NCBI GenBank assembly: GCA_022827885.1
Contig: JAJEIP010000004.1
Span: 1 to 56,116, forward strand
Direction: 5' to 3'
DNA length: 56,116 nucleotides
Origin: Candidatus Poribacteria bacterium
Lineage (GTDB): Bacteria > Poribacteria > WGA-4E > WGA-3G
Every line of letters starts with the position of its first letter. Position 1 is the stretch's first letter. Below the pieces are notes generated by a model. That model did not search any database, had not been told where the DNA came from, and worked only from the letters and a program-made list of their open reading frames with translations. The position numbers and the translations under genes were made by a program. Of this stretch, positions 7,620 to 42,135 are shown piece by piece.

Positions 7620-7641
7620 ATTTCGTTGGAATTCTACGCGT

Positions 7642-8550
7642 TTATAGCAAATCTCTCAATGCGGATTCAAGCGTTCGGTGGTGAAATTCGTAGCCGCTGA
7701 CTTCCGTTTTCTCTGGAAGGACATTCTGGCTCAATACAACGAAATCCGCAAATTCTCCCATCAGGAACCGCAAGCCGAACGTCGGGACAGGAAACAGGGT
7801 GGGTCGCCGTAGCACACTACCGAGCGTCTTCGTGAATTCCACATTTCTGACAGGGAAAGGTGCCGTCGCGTTCAGAGGCCCACGAATCTCTTCATTCTCT
7901 AAAGCGTGTATCACAATACCAACCACATCGTCGACATGAATCCAAGACATCCATTGCCGACCGCTGCCAAGTATGCCACCGATGCCCATTTTAAAAGGTG
8001 GGAGAACCTGTGTTAACAACCCACCGCCTAATCCAAGCACAAGCCCAATCCGGACCATGACCACCCGAATCCCAAACGCATCCGCTTTCTGTGCCTCTGT
8101 TTCCCATTCTTGACAGACTTTGGCGAGAAAGTCTGTCCCCGGGGGCGACCCCTCCGTAAAATGCTCATCGCCACTATCACCATAGTACCCGATTGCGGAG
8201 GCACAGACAAGCACATCGGGTTTTGTGGGCAACTCGGCAAACGACGCAACGAGGTTTCGTGTCGAGTGAATTCGGCTCTCCCGGATCCGCCGTTTTTTTT
8301 CGGCGTTCCATCTACCAGCGATGGTTTCACCAGCCAGATGAACAACCGCTTTCACATCTGATGTGGCTTCTGAAGGGAGTTTTTCGGTTTCAGGATTCCA
8401 ACTGTAAACCGCTCTTGCGGACTTCAATTTCGTTTCTGCGCGTGTCGGATTCCGAGATAATACATGCACGGTATCCCCGCGTTCGTGGAGCGTAGTGCAG
8501 ACTCGACTTCCAATGAATCCGGTACCACCGGAGACCAATACATTTGCCAT
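7642..8550 (-). CDS. TIGR01777 family epimerase/oxidoreductase (SDR fold)
   Basis: The 302-residue protein starts MANVLVSGGTGFIGSRV, with the NAD(P)-binding GxxGxxG loop of atypical short-chain dehydrogenases. The following segments VVHLAGETIAGRWN and SAIGYYGDSGDE match the YfcH/TIGR01777 group, including the Tyr of the active site. WMSWIHVDDVVG is also typical. The C-terminal part (ALRDLL) is a short domain seen in the group. The ATG follows a good AAGGAG site. The biochemical role of this family is poorly defined; an NAD(P)-dependent epimerase or reductase activity is assumed from the fold. It lies between the HAD hydrolase and the aminotransferase on the same strand with short gaps (18 and 22 bases). 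Confidence 0.92.
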   Translation of the reverse strand: MANVLVSGGTGFIGSRVCTTLHERGDTVHVLSRNPTRAETKLKSARAVYSWNPETEKLPSEATSDVKAVVHLAGETIAGRWNAEKKRRIRESRIHSTRNLVASFAELPTKPDVLVCASAIGYYGDSGDEHFTEGSPPGTDFLAKVCQEWETEAQKADAFGIRVVMVRIGLVLGLGGGLLTQVLPPFKMGIGGILGSGRQWMSWIHVDDVVGIVIHALENEEIRGPLNATAPFPVRNVEFTKTLGSVLRRPTLFPVPTFGLRFLMGEFADFVVLSQNVLPEKTEVSGYEFHHRTLESALRDLL

Positions 8551-9662: not shown

Positions 9663-11153
9663 TTGCGGTTGAATCGTCGAATTATCCCTGGGTATACGAC
9701 CACCCGTTTAATACTCGTTTACTTCATCGTCGGATTGGGCACACTAATATTTGGGTTCTTCCATTATACCCAACAGATTTCTCGACTGAACACGGATATA
9801 GAAGCCCAAATAGACCTTTTCGCGGATCTCGCAGCGGAACTCCCCGGCGTAGAAAACCGAGGGTTGCAACAGAAGTTAATTACGATCGTCAAAAAGTCAT
9901 TCGCTGAAGACAGAGCACGCACATTTTCGTTTATCATTACCGATGCACAGGAAAACGTCTTAATTACGCGAGGCGTTGACCTACAATTAGACGCAAAGAT
10001 CGACAGTTTGGATATCAAGGTAAACCAAAGTGAGGATATCTCGTTAACACAAGATGAGCGCGCTTTACTACAATCAACATTAGCGCGCATGAAAAAAAAG
10101 CATCTACCGCGTGAAATACACATGCTCCTTGAAGACAGGAAGTTAAAGGGGTATATTTACTATGGCGATGCCGCACCCAGTGAAATGGTACATCTGCCTT
10201 TTGTGATAACTGATACCACTGGCACACCTCAGAAATGGCAGATATGGGGCGATGTTATTACTGCGGATCAGGCAACTGCGGAAGAACAGGAACGAGCGAA
10301 AATTTTTATTCAGAATGCACCAGCATCCTCTGTGATTGAAACGACCCCTCAATGGCACAAGGGCTACTTTTATTACGAGAGTAAGCCATACTATGGATTA
10401 GTCGTGCCTCTCATTGCACCGGTAGTCCTGTTAGCATTTGGAACTGTTTGTTTCCTCGTGTATCAACGGATAAAGTCTTATGAACACTCGGCAATTTGGG
10501 GAGGCTTAGCCAAAGAGACGGCACATCAACTCGGAACACCTATCTCGTCGCTGTTGGCGTGGACAGAACTGCTGCATGAACGCGGTAAGGAGAAAGAGGA
10601 TCCAACACTCGCTGAACTCTCCGAAAGCATGAGGAACGATCTGGAGCGTTTGCAGAAAACAACAGCGCGCTTCGGTATGATTGGCACGCAGCCCCCTCTT
10701 ACCGAAGTGAATATGGATGAAGTATTTGAAGAAGTCCGAGCATATTTTGAAAAACGGCTGCCACATATTAGTCGACGCGTTGAAATCCGATTGAAATTGC
10801 ATAAAATACCGTCTATACTCGCAAATGCGCAATTACTGCACTGGGTATTTGAAAACTTAATTCGTAATTCGTTGGATGCAATGGACAAGGCGGATGGGTG
10901 GATCCAGATTGAACCAAGGCATGACAAACGACGCGGCGATATTGTTATCCGATATGCGGACAATGGAAGCGGAATCACCCGCGAAAATCAGCAAAAGATC
11001 TTTGAACCCGGGATGTCTACTAAGGCACACGGGTGGGGACTCGGGTTAACAGTCGTTCAACGGATCATCCGTGAGTACCATCACGGAAGCATCCGCATGG
11101 TGAAAACGAGTCCTGACGGAACAACTTTTGAAATTCGACTGCCAGTCGCGTAA
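9663..11153 (+). CDS. membrane sensor histidine kinase, PorY-like
   Basis: A 496-residue kinase beginning at a TTG codon, supported by a GGGAGGAA site eight bases upstream. A transmembrane helix is near residues 15-33 (LILVYFIVGLGTLIFGFF) and a second near 240-262. Between them lies an extracytoplasmic sensor region of about 200 residues with no domain I recognise. The phospho-accepting His288 lies in ETAHQLGTPISSLLAW, followed by the N box (ENLIRNSLDAM), G1 (DNGSGI), F (IFEPG) and G2 (GWGLGL) boxes of the ATPase domain. The HQLGTP form of the H-box is what I associate with kinases found beside PorX-like regulators. The next gene, 128 bases downstream, is such a regulator, so the two should form a two-component pair. 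Confidence 0.9.
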   Translation: MRLNRRIIPGYTTTRLILVYFIVGLGTLIFGFFHYTQQISRLNTDIEAQIDLFADLAAELPGVENRGLQQKLITIVKKSFAEDRARTFSFIITDAQENVLITRGVDLQLDAKIDSLDIKVNQSEDISLTQDERALLQSTLARMKKKHLPREIHMLLEDRKLKGYIYYGDAAPSEMVHLPFVITDTTGTPQKWQIWGDVITADQATAEEQERAKIFIQNAPASSVIETTPQWHKGYFYYESKPYYGLVVPLIAPVVLLAFGTVCFLVYQRIKSYEHSAIWGGLAKETAHQLGTPISSLLAWTELLHERGKEKEDPTLAELSESMRNDLERLQKTTARFGMIGTQPPLTEVNMDEVFEEVRAYFEKRLPHISRRVEIRLKLHKIPSILANAQLLHWVFENLIRNSLDAMDKADGWIQIEPRHDKRRGDIVIRYADNGSGITRENQQKIFEPGMSTKAHGWGLGLTVVQRIIREYHHGSIRMVKTSPDGTTFEIRLPVA

Positions 11154-11281
11154 CCCACATTAACGGACGGTATAGGTAAAATGGTTGCCTGGGCATTTTC
11201 CCTACTGCCGCCGCAGTGAAGACGTTCACTCTCATTAATTGGGCACCGTACCGCACCTGAGCAGATTTTGAAAACTTACGT

Positions 11282-12850
11282 ATGTCACAAACACACCAAA
11301 TCTTATGGATTGATGATGAAATAGAAGCGTTGCAACCGCATATTCTTGTGCTACGCGACCGAGGCTACGCAGTCACACCCGTGACAAATGGCGAAGACGG
11401 CATCGCGCTTTTAGCGCGCGGTGATACGCAGTACAGTGCTATCCTACTTGACCAGGTTATGCCCGGTAAGGATGGAATGGCAACGCTCGATGCAATTCGC
11501 ACCATCAATACACAAATCCCTGTTATCCTTGTCACCCAGTCCAGCGATGAACAATTTGTTGAGGTCGCTCTCGGCAAGCAGGTAACCGATTTCTTGGTAA
11601 AACCGATCGGTGTAGCCCAGATCGTCTCAACACTGAAGCGCGTCCTCGATCAGCCGCAGATAGTCATAGATCAGATTCCGAGTCGCTACACCACTGATTT
11701 CAATGCTATTCGAGCAATGAAGGATGCGTCTCCGAATTGGCAAGACTGGATCAATATCTATGTAAAATTGTTACAATGGGATCTGGTGTCTGAGAAGTTA
11801 GCCGAGGGGGGGTTAGAGGAAACACATCTCGCACAGAAGAAAGAGTGCAATACCGAATTCTCTGACTTCGTCGCAACACATTATCCTGATTGGGTCGCAG
11901 GAAGTTCTGACGCACCGCCCTTATCGGTCAACGTTCTTGATCAGCATGTTATCCCGCAACTTCAAGCTGGAAAATCTGTTTATTTTATTGTGGTTGACTG
12001 CTTCCGCTTAGACCATTGGTTGGCGGTTGAATCACTTTTGTACCCTTATTTCTCTATCGAACGTCAATATAGTTTTTCAATCCTACCGAGTGCGACAATG
12101 TACGCACGAAATGCCCTCTTCAGCGGCTTGTTTCCAATAGAGATTGCCGAACGCTATCCACAATACTGGCAGGAAGAATCTGATGGGGACACAAGTACAA
12201 ACCGCTACGAACGCCAGCTCCTCGAAGCACATCTGAAGCGCAGAGGTATCAAACTGAAGCCTGGAGTCCAGTACTTCAAAATTTTTGATACTCGAGGGGG
12301 CAACACCTACAAAAAACGGGTTGCCGCGAACACGCGCGTGAGCCTCTCAGCACTGGTCGTCAATTTCATTGATATCTTGACCCATCAGCGCTCACAGTCC
12401 GATGTCCTACAACAGCTCGCACCTGATGAATCCGCTTTTCGGGCTTTGGCACGCTCATGGTTCTCGCATTCGGTATTTTTCGATATTTTACGCATTATTG
12501 CAGCACAAAACGCAACTGTAGTCCTCACCAGCGATCACGGCTCTGTCTTCTGTAACAGAGCAACCCGCGCTTACGGTAATCGTGATACGACCACCAGCCT
12601 CCGATTTAAAATTGGCTCTAACTTGGGATGCGAAGAACGTGAGGCGGTGTATCTCCGAAATCCAAAGGAGTATCGATTACCGGCGGAAAATGCAAGCAAG
12701 GACTACATTCTCGCGAAAGACGATTATTATTTCGTCTATCCAAACGATTTTTATAAGTATAAACGGCAGTTTCAAGGAGGGTTCCAGCACGGCGGTATCT
12801 CGATGGGCGAACTCATAACGCCTGTCGTAACACTAACACCCCGGCTGTAA
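11282..12850 (+). CDS. PorX-like response regulator with PglZ/alkaline-phosphatase effector domain
   Basis: The 522-residue protein has an N-terminal receiver domain (acidic residues at IDDE, phospho-acceptor Asp57 in LLDQVMPG, switch region VTQSSD, lysine in FLVKPIG). A helical linker follows, then a large C-terminal domain of the alkaline phosphatase superfamily (PglZ type). Metal and catalytic features are VVDCFRLDHW, the presumed nucleophile Thr272 in PSATMYARNALFSG, LTSDHGS, and a histidine in FQHGGISMGE. This is the architecture of PorX, which with the kinase PorY regulates type 9 secretion in Bacteroidota and has been described as hydrolysing oligonucleotides. It is directly downstream of a PorY-like kinase. 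What it regulates here is unknown, since no secretion-system gene lies in the window. The ATG has only a weak ribosome binding site. Confidence 0.9.
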   Translation: MSQTHQILWIDDEIEALQPHILVLRDRGYAVTPVTNGEDGIALLARGDTQYSAILLDQVMPGKDGMATLDAIRTINTQIPVILVTQSSDEQFVEVALGKQVTDFLVKPIGVAQIVSTLKRVLDQPQIVIDQIPSRYTTDFNAIRAMKDASPNWQDWINIYVKLLQWDLVSEKLAEGGLEETHLAQKKECNTEFSDFVATHYPDWVAGSSDAPPLSVNVLDQHVIPQLQAGKSVYFIVVDCFRLDHWLAVESLLYPYFSIERQYSFSILPSATMYARNALFSGLFPIEIAERYPQYWQEESDGDTSTNRYERQLLEAHLKRRGIKLKPGVQYFKIFDTRGGNTYKKRVAANTRVSLSALVVNFIDILTHQRSQSDVLQQLAPDESAFRALARSWFSHSVFFDILRIIAAQNATVVLTSDHGSVFCNRATRAYGNRDTTTSLRFKIGSNLGCEEREAVYLRNPKEYRLPAENASKDYILAKDDYYFVYPNDFYKYKRQFQGGFQHGGISMGELITPVVTLTPRL

Positions 12851-13021
12851 GGCGCAGCTTGCAAGTCCAGATGAAATAGATAGTACACCACACGCTATAG
12901 TTTATATCAAGTTAACCGCACCAGTTTTCAGAACCATTTGGTCGAAACGTGGAACACATTTTTACAAAACCCTCGCTGCTTTTTGCAATGCTGCCGATTT
13001 TTGACACGACAATTAACCGAG

Positions 13022-13042
13022 GTGCCTCTTGAAAAAAGGCAC
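13022..13042 (+). promoter_or_regulatory. small hairpin before the RNase G start
   Basis: GTGCC at 13022-13026 pairs with GGCAC at 13038-13042, just before the GGAGG site (13047) of the RNase G gene. RNase E/G mRNAs can be autoregulated through their leaders, so this hairpin is a weak candidate. It may equally be chance. Confidence 0.3.
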
Positions 13043-13056
13043 GATAGGAGGTAATA

Positions 13057-14637
13057 ATGGAAAAGGAGATACTTATTTCTGATGATGAGTATGAAACGCG
13101 CTGTGCGGTACTTGAGGAGGGAGTGCTGAATGAAATTTACATTGAACGGAAAGCAGCAACGCAAACATTGGGGAATCTTTACAAAGGACGCGTTGAGAAT
13201 GTACTACCCGGAATGCAAGTAGCATTCGTTGATATTGGATTGGACCGGCATGCCTTTCTACATATTTCTGACCTCAAATATGAGCATGCTGACGAAGATG
13301 AAGACGAAAATGGGAAACGCAACGGAGACCGAAAATCCAGCAAAAACACCGCAGTATTGGACCTGAAGGGAAAGCAAACCAAACAGACACGCGGTGGGCG
13401 CGGGTTCCCATTTCTCATAAGTGACCTCATTTCAAAGAAACAGGAACTCCTCGTTCAGGTCGGCAAGGAGCCTATCGGCACAAAGGGAGCACGAGTTACC
13501 AGTAACATCACGCTCCCTGGACGTTATGTCGTCTACATGCCCAATTCCTCGAATATCGGGGTATCGCGACGCATTGAGTCTGCCTCTGAAAGGGACAGAC
13601 TTCGTAGTATGGCCAAGGCAGTGAAAGCCGACGTTGAAGGCGGATTTATCATCCGTACTGCTGCTGAAGGTTTGAACGAAACCGAGTTCGCAGCCGAAAT
13701 CCGATACCTTATTGACCAATGGAAACAGGTGTGCGCCCGCGCAGACAAAAAATCCGCACCCAGTCTCGTCAGTAGAGATCTCAGTTTTACCAACAGGATC
13801 GTCCGGGATATGCTCACGAAGGAGGTCAAGCAACTCCTGATCGATTCAGACGCAGGGTACCAGGAGACGATGGAATACGTCTCCTCTGTCATGCCCGATC
13901 TGAAAGCACGCGTCTCGCTCTATCGGGAAGATTCGACACTCTTTGACGCTTACGGTGTTGAACGCGCACTCAAGGAAGCACTCAGCGAGAAAATTTGGCT
14001 CAAGTGTGGCGGCCATATTATCATCCAACAGACTGAAGCCATGGTCTCGATTGATGTCAACACGGGTCGATTCGTTGGAAAGTCTGACCCAGATAACACG
14101 ATTCTCAGTGCTAACCTTGAGGCTGTTGAGGAGGTCGTCCGCCAAATTCAATTGCGGGATTTAGGGGGGATTATCGTCGTTGATTTTATTGATATGGAAG
14201 AAGCTGCGCACCGCAAACGTGTCTTTAAAATGCTACAGGAAGCACTTCGAAAGGACCGTGCCCGCACAAATATCCTTCATTTCTCGGATTTAGGACTCGT
14301 TGAGATGACACGCCAGCGCACCCGTCCAAGCCTCTCTACCCTACTGATGGAAGAGTGTCCTTACTGCGATGGACATGGCACGATTCTATCCGTCGAAACC
14401 GTTGTCATTCAGCTGCTACGTGCCATAAAAATGGCGCATAAACAAACACAGCAGCCCCAATTACGGGTTATCGCGAATGACTATGTCGTCTCGCATATAA
14501 AGTCGAAGATGTCGAATAAATTGCGAGAACTCAGGAAGTCATTAAAGTTAGATCTCATCTTGGAACCTGATGCTGACTTGCACCTCGAAGATTACCGAAT
14601 CTTTGTCGGAAAAGGTGAAGAGGTGTTTCTCAATTAA
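13057..14637 (+). CDS. rng: ribonuclease G (RNase E/G family)
   Basis: This 526-residue endoribonuclease starts MEKEILISDDEYETRCAVLE behind an ideal GGAGG site. The N-terminal S1-type RNA-binding domain (GNLYKGRVENVLPGMQVAFVD) is interrupted near residues 80-120 by an unusually charged insert rich in Asp, Glu, Lys and Arg. The catalytic DNase I-like region includes SIDVNTG and VVDFIDM with the magnesium-binding aspartates. CPYCDGHG is the zinc-link that holds the dimer. There is no long C-terminal scaffold, so it is the RNase G-like short form. It would process rRNA and decay mRNA in the cytoplasm. It lies just upstream of rplU-rpmA, a neighbourhood seen in many bacteria. Confidence 0.93.
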   Translation: MEKEILISDDEYETRCAVLEEGVLNEIYIERKAATQTLGNLYKGRVENVLPGMQVAFVDIGLDRHAFLHISDLKYEHADEDEDENGKRNGDRKSSKNTAVLDLKGKQTKQTRGGRGFPFLISDLISKKQELLVQVGKEPIGTKGARVTSNITLPGRYVVYMPNSSNIGVSRRIESASERDRLRSMAKAVKADVEGGFIIRTAAEGLNETEFAAEIRYLIDQWKQVCARADKKSAPSLVSRDLSFTNRIVRDMLTKEVKQLLIDSDAGYQETMEYVSSVMPDLKARVSLYREDSTLFDAYGVERALKEALSEKIWLKCGGHIIIQQTEAMVSIDVNTGRFVGKSDPDNTILSANLEAVEEVVRQIQLRDLGGIIVVDFIDMEEAAHRKRVFKMLQEALRKDRARTNILHFSDLGLVEMTRQRTRPSLSTLLMEECPYCDGHGTILSVETVVIQLLRAIKMAHKQTQQPQLRVIANDYVVSHIKSKMSNKLRELRKSLKLDLILEPDADLHLEDYRIFVGKGEEVFLN

Positions 14638-33128: not shown

Positions 33129-36038
33129 TTATTCCACCATCTTCTCAAGGATCTGCTCAAGAAGCTGATCGCTATCGGCTTCCCGCTCCCGATATTGTTG
33201 GACCAACTCCGCTAACGTTGACGGTTTCTCACCTTTTGTGAGTGTTTCACCATTCGCTGGGATTCCCAACAGCAGCATATTCAGTGCCTCATCAAATGTC
33301 TGCGCCTGCACCGCCTCAAGTTCATTTGATCCTGCCTTCAGTACCACCATCTCTAACTTCGGACGTCGCGGCTTGTCGTCATCTTCACCCTCCGGCTTTT
33401 TCGCTTGCAGGTAAATCGCCTCAAGATAGAACAGCGCGTCCTCAATCGGAATAATCAGTAGATTGCCCCGAATCACATCGTTTGCCGCTTGCCAACCGCG
33501 TTGTTGATCACCGGTTTTCTTGTTAATATCGTCTTCCACCTGGGTCGGTCCGGCGATCCCTGCGTTCTCAGGGAGCACGTAAACGATCCGCTCACCGTAA
33601 TGCGGTTGATCGCAGCGTGCCACCATCCATGCCTTCAACTGTTTCTCGCGATCTCGCGGCGCGAATGGAATCACATTCACAAACTCAACTTTTTCCTCAC
33701 CCGGCAACTTCAACATAGCGTAATAGGGCATCATTTCCTGATCCGCTTGTGAGGAGTAGTATGCCTCTTTCGGTATCGACCAAGGGTTCGTATTATCATA
33801 AAACCCGCTCGCTTGCCGGTAATAATCGCCGTAAAGTCTCGCTTGAATCCGGGTTAGATAATCCGGGTACCGCAAGTGCGCCGCCAACCCGTCCGGCATC
33901 TCCGAGAGTGATTTAAAGAGATTCGGGAACGCTTTCTGATAAGTCCGCATCACGGTTTCGTCTTCTTCATCTTTCTTGATGGCATAGAAATCCACCGCAC
34001 CGGTATAAGCGTTAACGACAGCGACACCGGCATTTCGGATGTAGTTGAACGTATCAAAATCCGGCTCCTCATATAGTTCACTGTCTGTGAGTTGCGTCTT
34101 ATCGTCCACATACATCTGTGCGTTCGGATAATACCGGCTCGTCACATAGAAGTCGATGATCCAATATAACTGTTTATTGTGAATCACAATATACGGATCG
34201 GGGTCGTAATTCAGGAAGGGTGCTATGTATGAAACCCGGTCTTTGACGAGGCGGTCATTTCGACGGGTGCCGATCCTTCTCCGGAACATGATTCGGCTCT
34301 CCGGTGTCAGTTTCTCTGAGATGAGGATGGGGATGAAATCGAAGCGAAGCGCGAAACAGAGTCGACGGAACCAACCGCCTAAAGACACACCTCCATCCCC
34401 GGCGTATGTATGCTGCATCCATTCAGGTATTTCTGGGGTTTCCGTAACACCCGCGTCACTTTCGGGGTCCAGTCTGCGTTCAGCACTATTTGCATCGCGA
34501 TCGGTGTTCACAATCATGTAGTTGCGGATCATCTCACCGTAGTAAATCTGCGGATATTCTACTGTCAGTTCCTTGTAAGCACTATCGATCGGTGTATCCT
34601 TGACCCAGAGTTTCGGTAAACCCTCGCCAACGAACTCGTTCACCGGGGCGACACACACGCCGTAGCCGTGCGTAAAAGAACGTAGATCCGTTTTCAGGCG
34701 ATCCCACCCCGTAATCTCGGTACCGGGATCAATTTCACGGGCGGCTATTAGGACCTGCCGATATTCACCATCTACTGTATATCTGTCGACATCAGTATAC
34801 GGATGGAAGTTGTAATGCGGTTTAATCTGTGTCTCTCGGAGAGCCTCATACAGGACCCGTCGATCCCAAATCTGGATATTCTTCTTGACCTCGGCGTTTT
34901 CCGTTATCATTTCCAGTGTTGCGGTCCCAGGCTCGCGGTCAACCCTCACGATCTCATCGAGATCAAAGGCGCGGCGTGTCTCTTCGATGTGCCTCTGCAA
35001 GTACCGCCCCTCCTTGAGAAAAGGTTCCACACGCATACGTGCTACGTGGAGACCCAACGGGTATGCTTGAATCAACAGTACGTAACTCAATCCCCATATC
35101 GCCCCAGACACATACCACAACAGTCGTTTCCGCCAGAAGATGTTAATTACGATAACGATTGCGATGCTGATCAGCGCGCCGCAATAAATGTTCGTGGCAC
35201 CTGCAAGGTGAAAGTCCACGTAAAATAACCCGTGGAGGGTCTGCAGCCCGTTCGTCAGGGGCTTTGTATATACCTTGTCCCAGAGGTTCACATAGCTTCG
35301 CCACCCGCTGACGATCAGTAGCAATATCCATAAAGCCGAGCCGTGAAAGATAATATGTCGTTTCACACGTGCCATTGTGTGGGCGTCCCGCCGGTAATAG
35401 AAATTATATAACAACCCAACAACAATACACGTTACCCATAGGGTTATCTCTACCCAGAGACTCACCCATCGGTGGAGCGGGAAACTAAAGAGGTAGAAAT
35501 TCCGATCCATTCCGAAATGGAGAGAACTCTCTACCGCTACCACATCCGATTGATTCAGGTACCGAAGCATTATATCGTCCAATAGAAGCATCGGTCCTGC
35601 GAGCAGAAGTGCCGCGATCAACGTGATGTAGATGACCATCCGATGGAAAGAGAAGGTCTGCGTATGTGTCCAGCGCCGAAACTCGCGGGATTCTGGACAC
35701 AATATGTTAGCGATTGCCGTGTTGGCATTCATAAATCCAGCAGCGACAATGAAACAGACACCGAAAATGCCCCACCGGACCTTCTGGAGCCCCCAGAAGA
35801 CAGCAGCGTATCCAACGTGTTCAAACCAGAGGTGTTCTGTATAGAGATGTGCCAAGGGGAAGAAGCAGCTCATCGTAATCAGCACGCTCAACGTCCAGAG
35901 CAGATACGCCTGCAATTTATTATGAACGCCGCGCCGCCAGTAACCGCTCCGTCGATACCGAAGGATACCCCATATTAAGGTAACACCGACAAGGAGTATG
36001 CTTAAAAGTAACTGTGCGATAGCAAGATCTGCTGTCAT
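33129..36038 (-). CDS. UPF0182 family membrane protein
   Basis: The 969-residue protein starts MTADLAIAQLLLSILLVG; this ATG has an ideal AGGAGG site, and a TTG six codons upstream is not needed. The N-terminal third contains about seven hydrophobic helices, with WFEHVGYAAVFW and the following segments typical of UPF0182 (COG1615). The rest is a large soluble, probably extracytoplasmic region that includes the family phrases TPIDSAYKELTVEYPQIYYG, YVTSRYYPNAQ and IVYVLPENAG. The final ~150 residues are acidic and likely disordered. The function of the family is not known. It stands alone on its strand. Confidence 0.93.
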   Translation of the reverse strand: MTADLAIAQLLLSILLVGVTLIWGILRYRRSGYWRRGVHNKLQAYLLWTLSVLITMSCFFPLAHLYTEHLWFEHVGYAAVFWGLQKVRWGIFGVCFIVAAGFMNANTAIANILCPESREFRRWTHTQTFSFHRMVIYITLIAALLLAGPMLLLDDIMLRYLNQSDVVAVESSLHFGMDRNFYLFSFPLHRWVSLWVEITLWVTCIVVGLLYNFYYRRDAHTMARVKRHIIFHGSALWILLLIVSGWRSYVNLWDKVYTKPLTNGLQTLHGLFYVDFHLAGATNIYCGALISIAIVIVINIFWRKRLLWYVSGAIWGLSYVLLIQAYPLGLHVARMRVEPFLKEGRYLQRHIEETRRAFDLDEIVRVDREPGTATLEMITENAEVKKNIQIWDRRVLYEALRETQIKPHYNFHPYTDVDRYTVDGEYRQVLIAAREIDPGTEITGWDRLKTDLRSFTHGYGVCVAPVNEFVGEGLPKLWVKDTPIDSAYKELTVEYPQIYYGEMIRNYMIVNTDRDANSAERRLDPESDAGVTETPEIPEWMQHTYAGDGGVSLGGWFRRLCFALRFDFIPILISEKLTPESRIMFRRRIGTRRNDRLVKDRVSYIAPFLNYDPDPYIVIHNKQLYWIIDFYVTSRYYPNAQMYVDDKTQLTDSELYEEPDFDTFNYIRNAGVAVVNAYTGAVDFYAIKKDEEDETVMRTYQKAFPNLFKSLSEMPDGLAAHLRYPDYLTRIQARLYGDYYRQASGFYDNTNPWSIPKEAYYSSQADQEMMPYYAMLKLPGEEKVEFVNVIPFAPRDREKQLKAWMVARCDQPHYGERIVYVLPENAGIAGPTQVEDDINKKTGDQQRGWQAANDVIRGNLLIIPIEDALFYLEAIYLQAKKPEGEDDDKPRRPKLEMVVLKAGSNELEAVQAQTFDEALNMLLLGIPANGETLTKGEKPSTLAELVQQYREREADSDQLLEQILEKMVE

Positions 36039-36170
36039 GATGAATGCCTCCTGCAAGACATTATAGCATAGGTGTAGAGACTTCGCAAATTCTGCCGTCA
36101 GCGAATTCGTCAGAATCAGGATTTTCAGGACAGGAGATTGCTGACGGCTGCCTGCTGATTGCTAACTTGT

Positions 36171-36192
36171 GGCAACGAACTGTGCTCACGAT
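36171..36192. repeat. intergenic repeat copy (AACGAACTGTGCTC type)
   Basis: GGCAACGAACTGTGCTCACGA closely resembles 42932-42956 (TGTAGGAACGAGC then TGTGCTCGCGA) and more distantly 461-485. All copies lie between genes. Such short elements are common intergenic repeats in some genomes; the family assignment is by eye. Confidence 0.5.
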
Positions 36193-36224
36193 CATCCGCG
36201 TAATCCACGATTCAGACAAAAAAT

Positions 36225-36253
36225 TTGACAAAAAACATCCATTACGCTATAAT
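36225..36253 (+). promoter_or_regulatory. promoter-like unit P1 of tandem array
   Basis: TTGACA at 36225-36230 and TATAAT at 36248-36253, 17 bases apart: a perfect consensus. Its surroundings match those of P4 closely. No gene follows directly. Confidence 0.65.
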
Positions 36254-36317
36254 TAATATCAATTCAACCCTAAAAGCACCGAAATACGCGTTTTTCGCAC
36301 CCTGTTGAAAAAAATAC

Positions 36318-36346
36318 TTGACAAAAACACCCAATTTCTGTAGAAT
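36318..36346 (+). promoter_or_regulatory. promoter-like unit P2 of tandem array
   Basis: TTGACA at 36318-36323 and TAGAAT at 36341-36346, 17 bases apart, preceded by an A-rich stretch as in P1 and P4. Confidence 0.6.
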
Positions 36347-36368
36347 TTCAAATGTACGAAAAATAGTG

Positions 36369-36397
36369 TTGACTTTTTTTCGTAACTATTTTATAAT
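36369..36397 (+). promoter_or_regulatory. promoter-like unit P3 of tandem array
   Basis: TTGACT at 36369-36374 and TATAAT at 36392-36397, 17 bases apart. The spacer (TTTTTTCGTAACT...) is shared with P6, so these two units are copies of one another. Confidence 0.6.
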
Positions 36398-36497
36398 TAT
36401 GGGTGTTAATAGAGGACATAGGAGGCATGGAGACCGAATCCTCGCCAAAACCGAGAATCGGGACGCTCCACCTCTGAAAACATTTTTTCAAAAAAAT

Positions 36498-36526
36498 TTG
36501 ACAAAAAATACAGCCTACGGTATAAT
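36498..36526 (+). promoter_or_regulatory. promoter-like unit P4 of tandem array
   Basis: TTGACA at 36498-36503 and TATAAT at 36521-36526, 17 bases apart: a perfect consensus, similar to P1 in its flanks (AAATTTGACAAAAAA). Confidence 0.65.
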
Positions 36527-36536
36527 TAACGTATAA

Positions 36537-36570
36537 CGTAGGTTGGGTAGGGCGTCAGCGAAACCCGACA
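36537..36570. repeat. TAGGTTGGGT intergenic repeat
   Basis: GTAGGTTGGGTAGGGCGTC followed by AGCGAAACCCGACA, with GGGT and ACCC arms, resembles a widely occurring bacterial intergenic repeat pattern (TAGGTTGGGT...AACCCAACA). Found once here, between P4 and P5. Confidence 0.4.
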
Positions 36571-36602
36571 AAAACCCACTACACATTTTTTTGAAGAAAA
36601 AT

Positions 36603-36631
36603 TTGACACTGCATTACAAATGTAGTATAAT
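36603..36631 (+). promoter_or_regulatory. promoter-like unit P5 of tandem array
   Basis: TTGACA at 36603-36608 and TATAAT at 36626-36631, 17 bases apart: a third perfect consensus in this region. Confidence 0.65.
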
Positions 36632-36703
36632 AATTACATAACTGCGGTAGAACGGATTTCCTGAATTCTAATTTGAGCGATTTCCGATCCCGCTAAAAAA
36701 GGC

Positions 36704-36731
36704 TTGACTTTTTTCGTAACTCGTTTACAAT
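36704..36731 (+). promoter_or_regulatory. promoter-like unit P6 of tandem array
   Basis: TTGACT at 36704-36709 and TACAAT at 36726-36731, 16 bases apart. It is a near copy of P3. Confidence 0.55.
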
Positions 36732-36797
36732 TAACAACGTTTATACAAGTGGTTTGGCATAATCTATAAAGGATACTCCAAACCCAAATTTTCAAGC

Positions 36798-36972
36798 GTG
36801 TTCCGAAGACACCTACCTTTACTGGTAGACGAGGCTCCCTAACCTCACAGCCTTCAATAACGCGCACCAAAGGTTAGTTCAGAATAGATTTCATCCCTGA
36901 AAATCTGTTCTTGCTGTTTGACAAGAAAGCACACGATGTGAAGTGTGCAGGGGCACATATCCCTACTGCCCC
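36798..36972 (+). ncRNA. candidate structured leader RNA, unidentified
   Basis: Five hairpins follow one another: GTGT/ACAC (36798-36812), directly abutting CTACC/GGTAG (36813-36828), AGGCT/AGCCT (36832-36853), GCACAC/GTGTGC (36929-36948) and GGGGCA/TGCCCC (36950-36972). They lie downstream of the promoter array and upstream of the ribosome binding site at 37012. I do not recognise a known riboswitch class. The stems are short, so this is a suggestion only. Confidence 0.3.
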
Positions 36973-37026
36973 ACGGTGTTTGATACGAACGTTTTTTAGT
37001 TTGATTTAAATGGAGGAAAATTAGTA

Positions 37027-37260
37027 ATGTTGTCTAATAAGTGGACATTTTCCTGACCAAGTTCGATTGTAATCTTGGCACTCGCTTGTGCCGCCCCTTA
37101 ATTACCGCTCCTGCTGATGCTACCGCTCCTGAAATAGCAAGAGTTTTGATTCTTATACCGATGCCGACATCATCGAGATTACGGCTCCGGGTGGCTTTGC
37201 TTAAGACACTGGGTTATTTGCCACTTTTGGAAGGTCCTCCCAATTCTGCTTCAGACAATT
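37027..37260 (+). pseudogene. decayed gene for a small secreted protein
   Basis: GGAGGA at 37012-37017 precedes ATG at 37027, which reads MLSNKWTFS and then a stop. If that stop is ignored, the same frame continues SSIVILALACAAP, which has the shape of a signal peptide core, before another stop. Protein-like phrases then appear in other frames, such as TAPADATAPEIA and TDADIIEITAPGGFA. This pattern fits a gene broken by frameshifts or stops. It may instead be a 9-codon leader ORF. Confidence 0.4.
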
Positions 37261-37266
37261 ATCCGA

Positions 37267-37295
37267 TTGACCGTATCTCCGAAACGTGTTATATT
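37267..37295 (+). promoter_or_regulatory. sigma70-like promoter for the copper monooxygenase-like gene
   Basis: TTGACC at 37267-37272 and TATATT at 37290-37295, 17 bases apart, about 33 bases before the ATG at 37328. Confidence 0.6.
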
Positions 37296-37327: not shown

Positions 37328-39178
37328 ATGAAGCCGTATCTACTAACGCTTTTTCTTATCCTTGTACTTCCCTTCTCAGGACACGCCGCGTCCGAATACA
37401 AAATCGCAAAAAAACATCGCGTTATCCAAGAGGCATCCTTACAACCGAGCAATGTTCCCATCGGCACAAAAATTTCGCGTCTCACCTTCACGACACTCCA
37501 CAGCGAGACACATAATTTAGAGACTCTCACCGCACAGGGACCCGTTGTCTTCGCGTTCCTCGCAACCGAATGCCCAGTTGCACAACGCTATACGATGCGT
37601 CTGAAACGGTTACATGCTGAATTCGCACCTCGAAATACCACTTTCGTTGCAGTCTATGCCAATGAAAACGATTCCGAAGACGATGTAAAGAACTACATCA
37701 CCAAAGCAGATTATCCCTTTTTTGTTGTGAAGGACACAACTGGCAAAATCACACGGGCTCTCGGTGCAACCATGACACCGCAGGCTGTTCTCGTTGATAC
37801 AACCCGTAGGATCACCTACCGCGGTGCCATTGATGATAACCGCTACGAGCCACGCGTCAAGCACCACTACCTACAAGATGCCCTTCTCGCGACGCACACC
37901 GATACGCTTATCCTCGTGCAAGAGACACCGGCGTTCGGATGCACGATCCATCTCCGTGAAGCCGATCTCCCCCCAGAGATTACCTATAGTCAGCACATCG
38001 CACCGATCCTCCAGAAGGATTGCCAGACGTGCCATCGGCACGGCGAAGTCGCTCCCTTCACACTCACCGATTACAGCGATGCAAAGGCGTGGGCAACCGA
38101 AATCGCTGAATACACACAGGCACGTCTCATGCCACCGTGGAAACCCGCACCCGGCTACGGCGACTTCAAAAACGAACGGCAACTCACAGACACCGAGATC
38201 CAGATGATCGCACACTGGGTGGAAGCCGGGGCACCCGCAGGCGATCTTGATTCTGTCCCACCGGCACCGGAGTTCCCTGACAGTTGGGCACTCGGTGAAC
38301 CCGATTGGATCGCTGAAATGCCGGTCGAATATGAAATTGAACCCGAAGGCGAAGACGAATATCGGCAGTTCATTATACCCACTAACTTCGAGACGGACAT
38401 GTACGTCCAAGCCGTTGATGTCCAACCCGGCAACCGCAAAACCGTCCATCACGTCATCGCCTACTTAGACGTGAACGGCGAAGCGCGTAAACTCGACGCG
38501 CAGGACCCCAAACCGGGCTATGTTACAGAGGGAACGGGACCTGGATTTGATAGTGCAGGGACAGTCGGCGGTTGGGCACCGGGTGTTACACCGTTGGTCT
38601 TACCGGAGGGGGTCGGTTATCTCCTACCGAAAGGAGCCGACATCGTCATGCAAGTGCATTACTATCGCACGGGGCATCTTGAACGCGATCGTTCGCGGTT
38701 GGGGTTATACTTCTCCAAAACCCCAGAAACCACCAAATTGCATATCGGAGACGCAATTAACAGCGATTTCGTGATCCCTGCCGGTGAAAATTGGTATGAG
38801 GTTTTGGCATCGGAAACGTTTAAAAGAGACGTTTACCTCTTAGCAACGATGCCGCATATGCACCTCCTCGGACGCGACATGCGGCTTGTTGCCGTAACGC
38901 CATCCGGAGATAAACATGACCTCATCTGGATCCAGGATTGGGATTTCAATTGGCAGGATGTCTACCACTATCGCGAGCCGATTTTCTTACCTGCTGGCAC
39001 CCGTGTTGATCTCGTCGCACATTTCGATAATTCCGCAGAGAACCCAGTCAATCCCCATGATCCACCGATCCCTGTTGGTTGGGGTGAAAAAACGACAGAC
39101 GAGATGTGTATCGGATTTCTATATTACGTCAAAGCCAGCGAATTTTCACCGGATCTCACAACAACGACGCTACCGTAA
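37328..39178 (+). CDS. exported redoxin / cytochrome c / copper type II monooxygenase-like fusion
   Basis: The 616-residue protein starts with a signal peptide (MKPYLLTLFLILVLPFSGHAA) behind GGAGG. Residues about 45-190 look like an AhpC/TSA-type redoxin (VVFAFLATECPVAQRY, then TPQAVLVDTTRRITYRG) with one conserved cysteine. A c-type heme site CQTCH is at Cys232-His236, with LMPPWKP downstream in a DUF1588/cytochrome-like pattern. The C-terminal half resembles the copper type II ascorbate-dependent monooxygenase fold: His374-His375 (KTVHHVIAYL), MQVHYYRTG with His444, and MPHMHLLGRDM with His510 and His512. It should act outside the cytoplasm in an oxidative reaction with electrons passing through the heme. 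The substrate is unknown. The 3' end overlaps the convergent yihY gene by 23 bases. Confidence 0.88.
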   Translation: MKPYLLTLFLILVLPFSGHAASEYKIAKKHRVIQEASLQPSNVPIGTKISRLTFTTLHSETHNLETLTAQGPVVFAFLATECPVAQRYTMRLKRLHAEFAPRNTTFVAVYANENDSEDDVKNYITKADYPFFVVKDTTGKITRALGATMTPQAVLVDTTRRITYRGAIDDNRYEPRVKHHYLQDALLATHTDTLILVQETPAFGCTIHLREADLPPEITYSQHIAPILQKDCQTCHRHGEVAPFTLTDYSDAKAWATEIAEYTQARLMPPWKPAPGYGDFKNERQLTDTEIQMIAHWVEAGAPAGDLDSVPPAPEFPDSWALGEPDWIAEMPVEYEIEPEGEDEYRQFIIPTNFETDMYVQAVDVQPGNRKTVHHVIAYLDVNGEARKLDAQDPKPGYVTEGTGPGFDSAGTVGGWAPGVTPLVLPEGVGYLLPKGADIVMQVHYYRTGHLERDRSRLGLYFSKTPETTKLHIGDAINSDFVIPAGENWYEVLASETFKRDVYLLATMPHMHLLGRDMRLVAVTPSGDKHDLIWIQDWDFNWQDVYHYREPIFLPAGTRVDLVAHFDNSAENPVNPHDPPIPVGWGEKTTDEMCIGFLYYVKASEFSPDLTTTTLP

Positions 39179-42050: not shown

Positions 42051-42079
42051 ATTATATCATATCTCGCACTGGATGTCAA
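42051..42079 (-). promoter_or_regulatory. consensus promoter for rpsU-dsRBD operon
   Basis: On the minus strand TTGACA (42079-42074) and TATAAT (42056-42051) are exactly 17 bases apart. The transcript should start near 42044, about 43 bases before the rpsU ATG. Confidence 0.8.
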
Positions 42080-42106
42080 GTATTTCTTGCCAATCCCAAT
42101 AACCCT

Positions 42107-42135
42107 TTGACAATTTGCTGACAACCTGCTATACT
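42107..42135 (+). promoter_or_regulatory. sigma70-like promoter for the TauE/SafE permease
   Basis: TTGACA at 42107-42112 and TATACT at 42130-42135 are 17 bases apart. The predicted start near 42142 leaves only about 20 bases before the AUC codon at 42162, with AAGGAGG at 42148-42154. This short leader supports the unusual start of the next gene. Confidence 0.7.

Follow-up and report, generated by a model that had tools for sequence, protein, structure and literature searches.

Why should six near-consensus sigma70-type promoters be stacked on one strand where no intact gene follows directly? The window analyzed here is a stretch of 56,116 nt (contig JAJEIP010000004.1) from Candidatus Poribacteria, a sponge symbiont whose genome is a MAG of 5.13 Mb in 148 contigs. 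The initial annotation had listed six promoters with their sequences between 36225 and 36731, and all six sites were confirmed there, all on the + strand (Table 1). They take up the left-hand portion of the 1.27 kb of intergenic DNA that separates a divergent UPF0182 gene from a redoxin/copper-monooxygenase-like gene. The frame nearest downstream is decayed, as had been noted, but the redoxin/monooxygenase gene behind it is intact. Two further features had been overlooked: a conserved hairpin leader lies between the array and the decayed frame, and the frame itself is what remains of the 5' end of a gene for a large secreted protein, which many relatives still have in intact form behind the array.

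Table 1. Features of the promoter array locus (window coordinates).
Feature	Position	Strand	Description
Divergent UPF0182 gene	33129..36056	-	Left border of the locus in relatives
Promoter P1	36225..36253	+	TTGACA-17-TATAAT; position and spacer type matched in G008, G017, G018, G001, G010, G046, G047
Promoter P2	36318..36346	+	TTGACA-17-TAGAAT; orthologues with CCCAATT-type spacer
Promoter P3	36369..36397	+	TTGACT-17-TATAAT; GTAAC within spacer; inverted repeat AAAATAGT/ACTATTTT spans the -35
Promoter P4	36498..36526	+	TTGACA-17-TATAAT; A-tract upstream; most conserved of the six, 12/12 in most relatives
Promoter P5	36603..36631	+	TTGACA-17-TATAAT; ACATC...GATGT dyad in spacer of relatives
Promoter P6	36704..36731	+	TTGACT-16-TACAAT; GTAAC within spacer
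Structured 5' leader	36736..37026	+	About 290 nt; would be common to all array transcripts; conserved across the genus
Leader stem 1	36751..36784	+	GGUUUGG...CCAAACC; consensus structure kept in 17-sequence alignment; several one-sided G-U changes
Core leader hairpin	36868..36922	+	AGAAUAGAUU - loop with CAUCCCUG - AAUCUGUUCU; covariance model R1
Shine-Dalgarno	37012..37017	+	GGAGGA
LTD-protein gene remnant	37027..37266	+	ATG 37027, MLSNKWTFS, TGA at codon 10 (37054-37056); body deleted
Redoxin gene's own promoter	37267..37295	+	TTGACC-17-TATATT; found 60-70 nt before the gene in most relatives, deleted in G008
Redoxin/copper type II monooxygenase-like gene	37328..39178	+	616 aa, intact; AhpC-TSA, Cu2_monoox_C; next intact gene downstream

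The claim that such an arrangement is not background noise was borne out. A 550-bp stretch holds six sites scoring at least 10/12, whereas dinucleotide-matched random sequences average 0.23 and never exceed 4 (2,000 draws). Perfect TTGACA-17-TATAAT sites number 88 in the 5.13 Mb (2 for the reversed control), and over the whole genome perfect sites less than 500 bp apart occur only at the array locus (three sites) and as one pair on contig C57. The genome-wide statistics come from pattern searches and from 831 kb of related Poribacteria contigs; in the latter, every cluster with four or more promoters in 600 bp (15 of 15) precedes the conserved leader, and clusters lacking the leader have just three sites each, mostly weaker. 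Elsewhere in the window (42051-42135), two near-perfect promoters stand back to back in divergent orientation (42079 on the - strand and 42107 on the + strand).

Comparison with relatives identified the array as the promoter region of a single gene, conserved among leader-bearing genomes from three genera in one family. These genomes are MAGs, some of them fragmented; wherever a leader-bearing genome offers sufficient upstream sequence (about 40 genomes), 3-7 promoters stand before the leader, with a mean of 4.7-4.9 per array against 0.2 in shuffled sequence and 0.14 on the reverse strand. The promoters are co-directional, their classes keep a conserved order, and they correspond to one another as orthologues between species. 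In many species of the genus, 4-7 such promoters lie upstream of the redoxin-gene orthologue. Some arrays stand apart from the redoxin gene because one or two large genes intervene. In the other genera of the family the order is array, leader, signal peptide and the remainder of the secreted protein, here called the LTD protein after its lamin-tail domain. P1/P4 and P3/P6 had been thought duplicated. Their shared flanks and likeness are real, yet they are distinct promoters whose order is constant across species. These flanks, together with short interspersed repeats just 5' of P1, could also be taken to mark a spreading promoter repeat, as had been proposed, or a mobile one, with copies made both inside the locus and elsewhere in the genome; against this, array copies elsewhere in the genome are short partial fragments of up to about 57 bp only, phages and viral contigs contain no match to the array, and orthologous promoters in a fixed order would have to be accommodated, so that we find this explanation hardly credible. 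The interspersed repeats themselves (GACGGCTGCCTGCTGATTGCTAAC and ATCCGCGTAATCCACGATTCAGACA, window 36136-36222) have many genomic copies at 87-96%.

Promoters of the P3/P6 type (window 36360-36392 and relatives) contain GTAAC within the spacer, and an inverted repeat often surrounds their -35, as in AAAATAGTT...AACTATTTT. Inverted-repeat arms around the -35 average 6.8 in this type versus 4.2 in the other promoters, partly because the flanks are A/T-rich. These repeats and the ACATC...GATGT dyad of P5-type promoters suggest possible operators. Covariation of the P3/P6-type repeat was judged by eye only, and we make no claim from it, as the A/T-rich flanks account for part of the pattern.

A structured RNA had been among the suggested products of the array, and a conserved hairpin leader is indeed present. 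From P6 to the start codon the RNA has a predicted MFE of -85.8 kcal/mol and folds better than its shuffles (z = -3.27). A covariance model of the core hairpin, R1, matches 43 of 85 genomes of the phylum, all of them in the window's family (f1; three genera), and a genome typically has a single strong match; one genome, G041, has two leader copies. Among 25 sequences 97.6% of pair cells are standard and two pairs have changed on both sides, and the covariation score is higher than that of nearly all shuffles and of every slid register. Sequence change in the core hairpin is almost absent even at a synonymous divergence of 22-44%, and 36 nt are identical in ten species. The window has no credible Rfam 15 match at gathering or permissive thresholds (best sub-threshold hit 18.8 bits versus 50), and a search of the + strand after the hairpin found no terminator. 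The window's own genome also has paralogous intact LTD genes on contigs C75 and C57; related hairpins precede them, behind one and two promoters, respectively. Between the tandem promoter and the leader of these paralogous genes lies a small ORF (L124, reverse strand, about 7620-7900; L123 is similar), whose predicted product of about 90-100 aa resembles a helix-turn-helix protein.

In the aligned upstream regions the leader, the Shine-Dalgarno site and the signal-peptide start are all conserved, and the window sequence is broken thereafter. Directly behind the array, at least 14 relatives have an intact ORF of 930-1,360 aa (G018, G020, G009, G021, G010 with two copies, G053, G022, G001, G073, G084, G075, G066, G077 and G081; genes were scored as intact or broken from their reading frames). 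The LTD protein begins with an N-terminal signal peptide, M(L/Q)LSNK-TFSL, and has a conserved C-terminal domain; its body is only 29-55% identical, far below the promoters, the leader and the signal-peptide start. PF00932 (lamin-tail, LTD) was detected in every intact relative scanned at 43.7-82.9 bits (cut-off 34.3), and the members measured are acidic (pI 4.4-5.1) with 0-1 cysteine. Outside the lamin-tail domain there was no match in Pfam, NCBIfam or, by sequence profile, PDB, and an AlphaFold model of an intact relative, built with five aligned sequences, had a mean pLDDT of 36.5, too low to be of use. The window remnant lacks PF00932 and retains merely the signal-peptide start before its stop. 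In several relatives a surface-type protein of 1,300-1,670 aa, absent from the window, is encoded between the LTD and redoxin genes (L070:8013-12593, L073:9511-13806 and L069:9156-13196); the one scanned, in L073, contains Big_1, dockerin, FlgD_ig and Por_Secre_tail domains.

The LTD gene has been lost repeatedly in the genus, with lesions that differ between clades. On a redoxin-gene tree, used as a stand-in for the species tree, the broken/intact state needs five changes, four of them forced by well-supported branches. The promoters have not decayed along with the gene: the 14 loci with an intact gene have a mean of 4.7 promoters with a mean score of 11.3, the 14 broken loci have 4.9 and 11.2, and shuffled sequence gives 0.2 promoters. 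The TGA at codon 10 is common to the window and two sister species, G008 and G017, and the loss is therefore older than their split. In a three-way comparison of these sequences, the sites variable since the shared stop amount to 2 of 173 (1.2%) in the promoter core (-35, -10 and spacer bases), 12/294 in the leader, 23/334 in inter-promoter DNA, 11/93 in the gene remnant and 119/707 (17%) at 4-fold sites. The promoter core differs from 4-fold sites (P = 4e-10), from the remnant (P = 2e-4) and from inter-promoter DNA (P = 0.004); for the remnant there was no significant departure from neutrality (P = 0.29). These rates indicate that in the window's lineage the promoters and leader are under selection since the loss of the LTD gene. 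In other pairs with broken genes the hexamers differ by 0-3%, except for G014/G016 (13%), while 4-fold sites differ by 22-44%; promoter conservation in such distant pairs is weaker evidence, because the losses there may be recent and the conservation may predate them.

Selection that outlasts the protein gene could mean that array and leader form a non-coding RNA gene, in which the hairpin RNA is selected and the protein gene is an optional, often-lost passenger. The slow evolution of leader and promoters after the break, the near-invariance of the core hairpin, and at least four to five intact/broken changes on the tree with promoter number and quality undiminished are all consistent with this. 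However, a Shine-Dalgarno site and signal-peptide start normally follow the leader, in most broken copies as well; the related hairpins on C57 and C75 precede intact genes of the same family, as an mRNA leader would; and the + strand lacks a detectable terminator after the hairpin. We consider it improbable that the promoter stack and hairpin leader are a stand-alone RNA locus of a Poribacteria family with an exchangeable or dispensable surface-protein gene; were this so, the hairpin would represent a new class of regulatory RNA.

Selection on the array might instead come from the gene next in line. The redoxin gene starts about 600 nt after P6 and 300 nt past the LTD gene start, and its protein stays conserved. 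Neither an intact gene nor a terminator was found between array and redoxin gene. In G008 and G017 a deletion has brought the redoxin ATG to about 131 nt after the remnant start and removed the gene's own upstream region; in G008 the promoter-like site nearest to the gene is P6. The array thus appears to be the only evident promoter source of the redoxin gene in G008, and nearly so in G017, and the retained promoters may now serve this gene by read-through. The stronger proposal, that selection on the array in the window genome derives wholly from a new role in driving the redoxin gene, is in our view possible rather than probable. A promoter of its own lies 60-70 nt before the redoxin gene in the window and in most relatives, and service to that gene is not an obvious reason for conservation of the hairpin. 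In G010, G018 and G009, moreover, the array is several kb away from the redoxin gene, with two large genes in between, and the redoxin role is therefore not ancestral.

Repeated loss of the same gene also calls to mind a contingency locus, in which repeated array-leader-signal-peptide units recombine and the body of the surface protein is thereby swapped or lost. The contrast between the conserved promoters, leader and signal-peptide start and the divergent body fits this, as do the tandem units in G010, the two leaders in G041, the broken unit that precedes an intact one in G077 and G081, and recurrent losses by differing lesions. Ordinary duplication and decay would look alike, though, and neither silent donor cassettes nor a recombinase was found; we rate this alternative as rather unlikely. 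The phase-variable arrangement that had been suggested was not upheld, as no invertible layout was found: there are three inverted repeat pairs (13-23 nt, AT-rich or imperfect at 80-92%) and none flanks the array. The G010 units, each with array, leader and LTD gene, are 5 kb apart (L105:5404-8562 and 10439-13489). In another genus (L234 and L237; also L159-L161) a broken leader with a signal-peptide remnant is followed by a second leader and an intact gene.

We concluded that the array very probably represents a stack of sigma70-type promoters belonging to a single transcription unit, which encodes a large secreted protein, and that in the window's lineage the stack was kept after the gene was lost. 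Each promoter would start a nested transcript, and all transcripts would cross one structured leader into the secreted-protein gene. Promoter activity is predicted here from conserved matches to the consensus, and high output and a surface location of the LTD protein from its composition and signal peptide; the protein would be large, secreted and probably surface-coating. Stacked near-consensus promoters and a stable hairpin leader would then make output both strong and robust, in the manner of genes for S-layer and cell-wall proteins. The codon-10 stop and a later deletion would have destroyed the protein gene in the window's lineage, with promoters and leader retained by selection, plausibly because transcripts now reach the redoxin gene.

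To our knowledge, the dominant surface proteins of Poribacteria, which are abundant uncultivated sponge symbionts, are uncharacterized, and our literature search found no paper tying Poribacteria to tandem promoters or lamin-tail proteins. The locus is a candidate for encoding the most strongly driven secreted protein of these bacteria. It also offers a ready-made expression element, strong if its predicted activity holds, and a leader RNA that has no Rfam match. Because the gene has been lost several times and its promoters have stayed, the locus also lends itself as a natural experiment on the retention or re-use of promoters after gene death.

Bacterial rRNA operons have tandem promoters of the P1/P2 type, stacked for high output. 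The Poribacteria array resembles them in its stacking and differs in its product, a secreted protein; no tRNA, tmRNA or rRNA was found at the locus. The intact relatives share the domain of Lamin tail domain proteins (PF00932), which the window copy has lost. Like the mRNA leaders in Rfam, the leader has a hairpin between promoter and Shine-Dalgarno site with compensatory changes, but no Rfam 15 family scores above threshold. With tandem-promoter S-layer and cell-wall genes, a class having at least two same-strand sigma70-type promoters, the locus shares six such promoters in the window and 3-7 in relatives, and a secreted protein with a signal peptide in the intact relatives; the composition of that protein (acidic, 0-1 Cys) would fit an abundant surface-lattice protein. 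The HWP cell-wall/S-layer gene of Brevibacillus choshinensis has five tandem promoters, P1-P5 (PMC7313076). Both loci place several tandem promoters before the gene of a secreted surface protein, the surface location being inferred in our case. They differ in phylum and protein, which are unrelated, and in the conserved hairpin of the Poribacteria leader; and unlike in Brevibacillus, the Poribacteria gene has been lost in the window and several relatives while its array persists.
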